DNA from: Terrabacter sp. Root85
GTDB taxonomy: Bacteria; Actinomycetota; Actinomycetes; Actinomycetales; Dermatophilaceae
Direction: 5' to 3'
Length of the DNA stretch: 64,000 nt
Assembly (NCBI RefSeq): GCF_001429185.1
Contig: NZ_LMIW01000008.1
Coordinates: 496,001 to 560,000, forward strand
Within the stretch, counting starts at the first letter, position 1, and each line of letters opens with the position of its first letter. The translations under genes were made by a program, and so were the position numbers. Below, one piece after another: positions 1-2,815 of the stretch. Under the pieces are notes generated by a model. It saw nothing but the letters and a program-made list of their open reading frames with translations, did no database searches and was not told the origin of the DNA.

Positions 1-238
1 CGAAGACGACGGGACTGTGCCACACGTGACGCGGGTCGAGCTTGCGCACGGCCTCGGGGAAGGTCGCGACCAGCTGGCGCGCGAGCGTGCCGAGCGACAG
101 CGGGGCCTTCCCCGCCCTGATGAGAGGCATCTCGCTGCCGGAGCCGCCGCGCCGGTGGGCCGAGCCGCCGTGGGCGCCGGGGCCGCGCGGGTCGGTGGTG
201 TCGGGGGACGACGGGGTCGTCGTCGGGGACGGGGTCAT
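1..238 (-). CDS. kdpB: Potassium-transporting ATPase ATP-binding subunit KdpB (N-terminal fragment, cut by window edge)
   Basis: Only the first 79 codons are inside the window; the gene continues past the left edge. The ATG at 238-236 overlaps the kdpA stop codon in an ATGA junction, the usual translational coupling of kdp subunits. After a Thr/Pro/Gly/His-rich N-terminal extension of about 45 residues, the segment FPEAVRKLDPRHVWHSPVVF matches the conserved start of KdpB before its first membrane helix. KdpB is the P-type ATPase subunit that powers high-affinity K+ uptake. The catalytic DKTGT motif would lie outside the window. Identification rests on this short match plus the kdpF-kdpA context. 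Confidence 0.9.
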   Translation of the reverse strand, partial: MTPSPTTTPSSPDTTDPRGPGAHGGSAHRRGGSGSEMPLIRAGKAPLSLGTLARQLVATFPEAVRKLDPRHVWHSPVVF

Positions 239-1881
239 GACAGTGCCTCCGCGAGGGGACCGAGGGCCAGGGCAGGGAAGAACGTGAGTCCGGTGACGAT
301 GATCGCCACCCCGACGAAGAGGCCCGCGAACGTGGGTGTGTGGGTGGGAAGGGTGCCAGCGTTGGCTGGCCGACGTCGTTGCGCCACCAGGGAACCGGCA
401 AGGGCCAGCACGAGGACGATCGGCACGAAGCGGCCGAGGAACATGCACAGGGCGAGGGTGAGGTTCGTGTACGGCGTGTCGGCCGAGAAGCCGGCGAACG
501 CGCTGCCGTTGTTGTTGGCGGCCGAGGCGTAGGCGTACATCACCTCAGTGAGCCCGTGCGGGCCGCTCGCGAGCATCTGCGACGACACCAGGGGCGCCAC
601 CATGCCGATCCCCGTGAAGACGAGCACGAGGGCCGGCATGACGAGCAGGGCCAGCGCGACCAGCGTGATCTCGCGCCGACCGATCTGCTTGCCGAGCAGC
701 TCGGGCGTGCGCCCGACCATGAGCCCGGAGATGAACACGGTCAGCATCGCGAGGAGCAAGGCGCCGTAGAGTCCCGACCCGACACCGCCGGGGGAGACCT
801 CGCCGAGGAGCATGTGGACGAGCGCACCGCCTCCACCGAGGGGGCTGTAGCTCTCGTGCATCGAGTTGACGGCGCCGGTCGAGGTGCCGGTGGTGCTCGC
901 CGCGAAGAGGGCGGACGGCCAGACGCCGAAACGCACCTCCTTGCCCTCGAGTCCGCCGAGCGGGCCGCTCGCCGCGCTCACCTCGGCCCACGTCACGGCC
1001 GCGACCATGAGGCCCCAGAGCGTGGCCATGAAGCCGAGCACTGCCCAGCCCTGCCGCCGGTCGCCGACGAGGATGCCGTAGGTCCGCGGCAGGGAGAACG
1101 GGATGACGAGCAGCAGGAAGATCTCGACGAGGTTCGTGATGGCGTTCGGGTTCTCGAAGGGGTGGGCGGAGTTGGCGTTGAAGTAGCCGCCGCCGTTCGT
1201 GCCGAGCTCCTTGATCGCCTCCTGCGACGCGACGAGGCCGCCCTGGACGACCTGCGACCCGCCAGAGAGCGTCGTGACCTCCGTCGGCGCCGTGAGGTTC
1301 TGGATGACGCCACCGAGCAGCAGGACGACGGCCCCGACGACGGCGAGGGGCAGCAGGACACGCAGCGACCCACGCACGAGGTCGACCCAGAAGTTGCCGA
1401 TCTCGGCCCCGCTCGAACGGGCGAGGCCGCGCACGAGCGCCACGGCCACCGCCAGCCCCACCGCCGGCGAGACGAAGTTCTGGACGGTCAGCCCGAGCGT
1501 CTGGACGAGCGGCGACGTGCCCGACTCCCCGGCATACGACTGCCAGTTGGTGTTCGTCACGAACGAGACGGCCGTGTTGAGAGCGGTGTCGAGGTTCATC
1601 GACGCACCGCGGGCGAACGGCAGGACGCCCTGCAGGGCGATGAGCGCGAAGAGCAGGACGACGCCGACGACGGAGAAGCCGAGGACGGCGACGGCATACG
1701 TGCTCCAGCGCTGCTCGGACGCGGGGTCGACGCGGCAAAGGCGGTAGACGAGGCGCTCCACGCGCCAGTCCCGGGTGTCGGTGAAGACGCGTGCCATCCA
1801 CGACCCGAGTGGCACGTGGACGGCGGCGAGCGCGGCGACGAGGACGGCGATCGTGAGCAGCCCGCTGACGGTGTCGCTCAT
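235..1881 (-). CDS. kdpA: Potassium-transporting ATPase potassium-binding subunit KdpA
   Basis: 548 residues, a normal KdpA length. This is the K+-selective channel-like subunit of the KdpFABC pump. All four pore-loop signatures are visible: TNTNWQSYAGES near the N-terminal third, NGGGYFNANSAHPFENPN, STTGTSTGAVNSMHES and NNNGSAFAGF. About ten hydrophobic segments span the protein. The ATG at 1881-1879 shares one base with the kdpF stop (TGATG), and the stop overlaps the kdpB ATG, so kdpF-kdpA-kdpB are translated as one coupled unit. A longer in-frame reading beyond 1881 lacks kdpA-like residues and covers kdpF, so it was rejected. Confidence 0.97.
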   Translation of the reverse strand: MSDTVSGLLTIAVLVAALAAVHVPLGSWMARVFTDTRDWRVERLVYRLCRVDPASEQRWSTYAVAVLGFSVVGVVLLFALIALQGVLPFARGASMNLDTALNTAVSFVTNTNWQSYAGESGTSPLVQTLGLTVQNFVSPAVGLAVAVALVRGLARSSGAEIGNFWVDLVRGSLRVLLPLAVVGAVVLLLGGVIQNLTAPTEVTTLSGGSQVVQGGLVASQEAIKELGTNGGGYFNANSAHPFENPNAITNLVEIFLLLVIPFSLPRTYGILVGDRRQGWAVLGFMATLWGLMVAAVTWAEVSAASGPLGGLEGKEVRFGVWPSALFAASTTGTSTGAVNSMHESYSPLGGGGALVHMLLGEVSPGGVGSGLYGALLLAMLTVFISGLMVGRTPELLGKQIGRREITLVALALLVMPALVLVFTGIGMVAPLVSSQMLASGPHGLTEVMYAYASAANNNGSAFAGFSADTPYTNLTLALCMFLGRFVPIVLVLALAGSLVAQRRRPANAGTLPTHTPTFAGLFVGVAIIVTGLTFFPALALGPLAEALS

Positions 1882-1967: not shown

Positions 1968-2007
1968 GACTCCTTCCTAGGGTCGCCCGCCGGGCGCCCT
2001 GCAGCCG

Positions 2008-2046
2008 TTGACCGCGCGCTGACGGCTCTTGACGCGTTCTTGACGG
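2008..2046. promoter_or_regulatory. Four helically phased TGAC repeats between kdpF and the channel gene
   Basis: The units TTGACCG, CTGACGG, TTGACGC and TTGACGG begin at 2008, 2019, 2029 and 2040, a spacing of 11, 10 and 11 bases. Same-strand repeats at one helical turn are typical of OmpR-family response regulators, and KdpE, the usual kdp activator, belongs to that family. Binding of KdpE is inference; kdpD and kdpE are not in the window. Confidence 0.5.
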
Positions 2047-2055
2047 GCCCGCCAC

Positions 2056-2061
2056 TAGAGT
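2056..2061 (+). promoter_or_regulatory. Predicted -10 element of a leaderless transcript (ion channel gene)
   Basis: TAGAGT lies seven bases before the GTG start at 2069. Transcription would begin at or next to the start codon, and no Shine-Dalgarno sequence is visible. This supports the 2069 start. Confidence 0.5.
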
Positions 2062-2068
2062 CCGAGTC

Positions 2069-2815
2069 GTGAGTGCGTCGCTGGAGCTCTGGCCGTCATC
2101 GCCCCGTCGCGCCGGGCCGCCTTCACGGCTCGACCAGCTGCGGCGCAAGGTCAACGAGCTGCCGTGCGCCCTGCTCCTCTTCGTCCAGCTGGGTGCGCTG
2201 TTGGCCTACCCCTTCGTCGAGACCGCGACCCTCGGTGACTACCGCGAGGCGGGACGCGCGGTCTTCGGCCTCATCGGCCTGCTCGTGCTCTTCCTCGCCG
2301 TGCGCGCGGTGCGGGCGACCCCGGCGCTGACGTGGGTCGCCGTCGTGCTGGGCGGGCCGGTGGTCCTGCTCACCGTGGCCGAGGCCGTGTGGCCCGACAA
2401 CAGCCCGATCGCCTTCTGGAGCGCTCTGCTGCACGCGCTCTTCTACTTCTACACGGGCTACGGCCTGCTGCGGTACATGTTCGCCGACAACTGGGTGACC
2501 CGTGACGAGCTCTACGCCACGGGCGCGACGTTCACCGTCGTCGCCTGGGGCTTCGCCTACCTCTACGTCGCCGTGCAGTTCATCTGGCCGAACTCGTTCA
2601 CCATCTACGGCGAGACCCTGCCGGGGGTGCGCACCTGGTACGAGCTGCTCTACCTCTCGATCACGACGATGACCTCGACCGGCCTCTCCGACATCTACGC
2701 GGTGACCCCGCACGCGCGGTCGTTCGTGCTGCTCCAGCAGATCGCCGGCATGCTCTACGTCGCGCTCGTCGTCGCCCGCCTCGTCGGGCTCACCATCGCC
2801 CGATTCCGTCAGTAG
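2069..2815 (+). CDS. Ion-channel domain membrane protein (two-helix pore family, atypical filter)
   Basis: 248 residues with about six to seven hydrophobic segments. The last part has the layout of the Ion_trans_2 pore: an outer helix, a pore loop reading TTMTSTGLSDIYAVTP, and a final helix (FVLLQQIAGMLYVALVVARLVGL). K+ channels carry T-x-G-Y-G-D in this loop; here the equivalent is T-G-L-S-D, so ion selectivity cannot be inferred. It is divergent from kdpFAB across about 100 bases with phased repeats, which suggests a role in K+ or ion balance. The GTG start is supported by a -10 element seven bases upstream. The family call is fair; substrate and direction are unknown. Confidence 0.72.
   Translation: MSASLELWPSSPRRAGPPSRLDQLRRKVNELPCALLLFVQLGALLAYPFVETATLGDYREAGRAVFGLIGLLVLFLAVRAVRATPALTWVAVVLGGPVVLLTVAEAVWPDNSPIAFWSALLHALFYFYTGYGLLRYMFADNWVTRDELYATGATFTVVAWGFAYLYVAVQFIWPNSFTIYGETLPGVRTWYELLYLSITTMTSTGLSDIYAVTPHARSFVLLQQIAGMLYVALVVARLVGLTIARFRQ

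Follow-up and report, generated by a model that had tools for sequence, protein, structure and literature searches.

Four phased direct repeats upstream of kdpFABC in Terrabacter sp. Root85: a probable KdpE operator beside a divergent channel-like gene

Terrabacter sp. Root85 carries a short array of phased repeats between its kdp operon and a divergently oriented channel-like gene, an arrangement that raises the questions of which regulator would read the array and which of the two genes it would control. We analysed this locus within a window of 64,000 nucleotides (contig NZ_LMIW01000008.1, positions 496,001 to 560,000). A preliminary description of the window had reported four repeats spaced 11, 10 and 11 bases apart, and both the repeats and their phasing proved correct, with TTGACCG at 2008-2014, CTGACGG at 2019-2025, TTGACGC at 2029-2035 and TTGACGG at 2040-2046 (TGAC words starting at 2009, 2020, 2030 and 2041). 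When both strands of the 64 kb were searched this was the sole chain of four TGAC words with 10 or 11 base spacing, and the mean number of such chains in 100 dinucleotide-preserving shuffles of the window was 0.000. A scan of the genome (4.87 Mb) with the four-box pattern found a single place with 0 mismatches, which is the array in the window, and a search allowing up to 3 mismatches returned only one other place, with 3 mismatches; the reversed-pattern control gave 0 places. Read in the direction of kdpF, on the minus strand, the repeats become CGTCAAGA-type boxes, a motif of known type that the preliminary description did not mention, and all four are oriented toward kdpF. The features of the locus are as follows.

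2005-2046, minus strand: four-box array, proposed KdpE operator, in kdpF sense CCGTCAAGAACGCGTCAAGAGCCGTCAGCGCGCGGTCAACGG
2038-2045, minus strand: box 1, CGTCAAGA, closest to the channel-like gene, kdpF start 78 bases away
2027-2034, minus strand: box 2, CGTCAAGA
2017-2024, minus strand: box 3, CGTCAGCG
2006-2013, minus strand: box 4, GGTCAACG, closest to kdpF
1974-1979, minus strand: candidate -10 element of kdpF, TAGGAA
1881-1967, minus strand: kdpF (Pfam PF09604, 6e-8), start assigned by homology
235-1881, minus strand: kdpA (PF03814, 5.6e-219)
2056-2061, plus strand: -10-like element of the channel-like gene, TAGAGT, between the array (10 bases away) and the GTG start (7 bases away)
2069-2815, plus strand: channel-like gene with an Ion_trans_2 pore (PF07885, 6.9e-6)

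The array lies directly upstream of kdpFABC in a genome that encodes the cognate KdpD and KdpE. The preliminary description had suggested looking for kdpDE past the left edge of the window, and both genes were found there in the same operon as kdpFA: kdpB (which extends into the window to position 238), kdpC, kdpD and kdpE complete one kdpF-A-B-C-D-E run on a single strand. The kdpD gene was identified by PF02702 (6e-95), and the kdpE product is a response regulator whose best NCBIfam model is KdpE, at 219 bits and thus below the cut-off of 325. The closest solved structures to this protein are 6lgq ('DNA-binding response regulator') and 4kny (named KdpE), the latter of which we take to be E. 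coli KdpE. An FtsK-like gene on the opposite strand follows kdpE, and the channel-like gene to the right of the array is followed by genes for an M19 peptidase and rimO. The element TAGGAA, which we only infer to be the -10 of kdpF, overlaps a possible ribosome-binding site, AGGAAGGAG, and an element similar to TAGGAA is found at its position in relatives. We also noted a run of PAE tripeptide repeats at the C-terminus of KdpD, just before kdpE (L002:4763-4860, minus strand).

Conservation of the array and its relation to known KdpE sites

KdpA was detected in 79 of the 186 genomes sampled from the family, with 86 places listed. After exclusion of two fragments in genome G128, upstream DNA was taken from 84 kdpA places, of which two stretches were too short, and the remaining 82 were scored with a box matrix built from 30 of them. 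An array scoring at least 20 was found upstream of kdpA at 65 of these 82 loci (the maximum of 600 shuffles was 4.2) and, with the training loci set aside, at 35 of the remaining 52; the 11-10-11 spacing was kept in 58 of the 65. The array is therefore conserved upstream of orthologous kdpF genes, one of the points on which the preliminary description had let its reading stand or fall. These conserved arrays mostly occur without an adjacent channel gene. Box 1 is separated from the homologous kdpF start by 78 or 79 bases in all 30 training loci, in 10 of which the start was set by hand to the homologous in-frame codon.

The pattern is also close to specific for kdp. The 186 genomes contain 39 matches to the four-box pattern with at most one mismatch (control 0), of which 38 are located at kdp and one, in G179, is not; two of the 38 (in G010 and G011) precede a DUF4118 gene that itself precedes kdpF. 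Beyond the family, full arrays were found at L108, L109 and L132, while many kdpA upstream regions carry pairs only and some carry nothing. In a reverse-strand control 4 of 148 upstream regions scored above 5, one of them (L211) reaching 38.6.

Seventeen of the 82 loci had no array within 450 bases, and for 14 of these none was clear in the fetched DNA. The 17 comprise nine divergent kdpA copies of 57-59% identity, two loci from G179 and G180, three loci whose array lies some 1 kb upstream (L096, 36.3; L097, 43.7; L087, 20.1) and three without a clear array (L104 scoring 4.4). A further divergent copy of kdpA, L227, reaches 35.5. L228 and L229, which are second, divergent copies in G029 and G043, share one and the same 641-base upstream sequence, and for L230 and L231, second copies in G142 and G184, the upstream stretches match at 575 of 600 bases; such near-identity between upstream regions of divergent copies suggests recent transfer. 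All four of these loci show other 11-base repeats, CGTATGG/CGTTAGGA.

Operators of PhoB and similar OmpR/PhoB-family regulators consist of tandem 11-base direct repeats that are read by a winged-helix response regulator. The array shares its tandem 11-base direct repeats with the Pho box of PhoB and differs from it in the flanking bases, the regulator and the association of the Pho box with phosphate genes. The half-site of the Pho box is given as TGTCA(T/C) (PMC3264566). The KdpE site of E. coli kdpFABC is a pair of 6-base direct repeats, separated by 5 bases, upstream of the start (PMC3264566); it has the 11-base period and the position upstream of kdpFABC in common with the array, in contrast to its T-rich half-sites (TTTATA/TTTACA rather than CGTCAAGA) and its single half-site pair. 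KdpE residues R193, R200 and T215, described there as needed for DNA binding (PMC3264566), are conserved in the aligned KdpE of this genome.

A counterpart from the same phylum is the one minimal KdpE site, of 22 bases, footprinted at Mycobacterium smegmatis kdpFABC (PMC5401905). Of the 22 positions of this site, 16 agree with boxes 1 and 2. No other place in the window matches it as well, but the next three reach 15 of 22, so that this test is weak on its own; scored with the family box matrix, the M. smegmatis site reaches 21.8. Like the array, it lies on the same side and in the same sense upstream of kdpF, and it can be read as two boxes 11 bases apart, a reading of ours, since the term 'direct repeat' does not appear in the text. 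It differs in having two boxes in place of four and in carrying CGTAAAGA in its box 1, and the mapped transcript start 120 bases upstream of kdpF (PMC5401905) contrasts with the very short leader inferred here.

Taken with the likeness to the M. smegmatis footprint, the presence of kdpDE in the operon, the conservation and the near-specificity for kdp strongly support the earlier proposal of a KdpE-type site. From these comparisons of sequence we consider it highly probable (roughly 0.88) that the array is the KdpE operator of the kdp operon, a four-box form of a known kind for which two boxes had been described. At low K+, KdpD would phosphorylate KdpE, which would then bind the four head-to-tail boxes, probably as one dimer on boxes 1-2 and another on boxes 3-4; all boxes would lie on one face of the DNA, because they are spaced 11 bases within pairs and 10 between pairs. 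Bound KdpE would recruit RNA polymerase to the kdpF promoter, with the kdpF start codon held at a fixed distance from box 1 and transcription probably leaderless. For this actinobacterial family the result is a precise candidate KdpE box (CGTCAAGA, 11-10-11, with 78-79 bases between box 1 and the start codon), which should allow KdpE targets to be read from sequence and which already suggests that a DUF4118 gene is a second one.

The divergent channel-like gene

The product of the channel-like gene contains a K+-channel-type pore domain (PF07885, 26.3 bits against a cut-off of 22.5) and matches the profile of KirBac3.1 at 5.9e-5. The usual selectivity filter of K+ channels is of the GYG type; here the filter position reads TGLSD, not GYG, a non-canonical sequence that does not vary among the relatives aligned (20 of 20). 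A search with the predicted model (mean pLDDT 81.3) gave no fold match at E<=0.001, and its top entries, all above that value, were K+ channels whose TM-scores ran from about 0.3 to 0.5. Homologues of the channel were found in 115 of the 186 genomes, and 51 genomes carry the channel together with kdpA, the two being linked in 24 and unlinked in 27 (some perhaps by contig breaks). The linked genomes divide into 15 with the divergent layout, 3 in which the channel directly follows kdpE and 6 with kdp beyond the channel, the gene layout having been checked in 13 of the 24.

The proposal that the site could control both the Kdp pump and the channel found no support in so far as it implies activation, since the boxes face kdpF and the channel has none facing it: among the 15 divergent genomes, 0 had a channel-facing box pair above the 99% null of 7.5, the best scoring 4.2. 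The distance from the array end to the channel -10-like element is 10 bases in 11 of the 15, 9 bases in G040, G138 and G143, and 29 bases in G084. We do not accept this regularity as proof that the array controls the channel: distances on the kdpF side vary just as little, so that spacing does not single out the channel, and G084 deviates. At six channel loci without adjacent kdp (L008, L011, L015, L017, L018 and L020) the array is absent, while the start and the -10-like element are kept, the latter as TAGAGT in all except L015, which has TAAAGT. In Terrabacter tumescens (L010), where kdpA and kdpD were not found, a decayed array remains beside the channel. We regard control of the channel by the array as doubtful. 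In this clade the kdp operon sits between ftsK and the channel gene, so that its operator abuts the channel promoter, and on this reading the nearness of array and channel is mostly a by-product of gene order. The corresponding ftsK-channel interval of L008, which has no kdp, contains 32-base tandem repeats (L008:3674-3962; 2.8 and 5.7 copies).

What the layout does allow is occlusion, given that only 10 bases separate the array from the -10-like element of the channel. KdpE bound to the array might thus act as a two-way switch that activates kdp and blocks transcription of the channel when K+ is scarce, a reading that we hold possible though not probable. If the transcript starts at the GTG codon, the array would occupy the channel promoter from about -63 to about -23, and the near-constant distance described above fits such an overlap. 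A KdpA tree of 33 rows requires 3 changes to account for the divergent layout, at least 2 of them forced by well-supported branches, and KdpE has been reported as a repressor in S. aureus (PMC5401905). Against repression of the channel stand the equally constant spacing on the kdpF side, the other layouts in 9 of the 24 linked genomes, the 27 of 51 genomes in which the genes are unlinked, and the lack of an array at the channel loci without kdp.

Activation of kdp and channel together by array-bound KdpE, as the preliminary description had it, we judge very unlikely. The channel has no -35 element at normal spacing, and the position of the array beside the channel -10 resembles that at some promoters where an OmpR/PhoB-type activator replaces the -35 element. 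However, all four boxes face kdpF, channel-facing pairs exceed the 99% null in none of 15 genomes as opposed to 10 of 11 for the divergent DUF4118 genes described below, and a channel promoter exists without the array where kdp is not adjacent. Least likely of the readings is that the array does not belong to KdpE: TTGAC is similar to a -35 element, and several OmpR-family regulators use direct repeats of about 11 bases, but stacked -35 elements of the channel promoter or sites of another such regulator were rejected on spacing (the TTGACG-to-TAGAGT gaps measure 10 and 21 bases rather than about 17), on orientation, on conservation (the array is present at kdp without the channel and absent from channels without kdp) and on specificity, the array being nearly confined to kdp and matching a KdpE footprint. 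A literature search, restricted to open-access text and hence weak, returned no report joining KdpE with a divergent potassium channel.

A second array and the DUF4118 genes

The same genome contains a second KdpE-like array of three boxes with 11-11 spacing (L240:3073-3101, corresponding to G000:C15:13572-13600), placed 79 bases before an orphan DUF4118 gene (G000:C15:12787-13521, minus strand), as compared with 78 bases for kdpF. The encoded protein (276 residues by the chosen start; Pfam 7.4e-19) has no kinase domain. DUF4118 is a KdpD-like membrane domain that the KdpD of this genome carries too, and BLASTP between the two proteins gave a weak match (E 0.11).

A survey of the family identified 52 DUF4118 places in 50 genomes, and 30 of these loci were fetched. 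A gene-facing box pair above the shuffle maximum of 19.1 was present at 17 of the 30; four others had a kdp array on the other strand and nine had neither, including one truncated where its contig stops. kdpA occurs in 44 of the 50 genomes with a DUF4118 gene as against 35 of the 136 without (Fisher p 1e-14, not corrected for relatedness). In a genome without KdpA and KdpD matches, G177, the DUF4118 gene lies in two pieces in different frames and looks broken (G177:C2:592458-593067).

In 11 genomes a DUF4118 gene and kdpF are transcribed away from each other on either side of such a kdp array. A second pair facing the DUF4118 gene scored above the 99% null of 7.5 in 10 of these 11 (the eleventh at 5.5), and in 5 of 11 above the null maximum of 12.2. 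By this measure the divergent DUF4118 gene looks KdpE-controlled, and the contrast with the channel, at 0 of 15, indicates that a partner under apparent KdpE control brings its own boxes whereas the channel does not. The two kinds of divergent neighbour, one with facing boxes and one without, provide a natural experiment on whether the orientation of an operator determines which neighbour it controls. A broader and rather unlikely reading is that one KdpE box module governs a small K+ regulon, in which it would switch on kdpFABCDE and, through its separate three-box copy, an orphan KdpD-like DUF4118 membrane protein acting to tune the system, and in which the kdp array of this clade would also shut the adjacent TGLSD channel by covering its promoter; if this were true, pump on would mean channel off.

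We also noted an 11-base tandem repeat, CCTGACGCGCC, of about 6.7 copies at L242:2377-2450 (contig C9 of the genome), away from kdp, which because of its 11-base period could be mistaken for a KdpE array.
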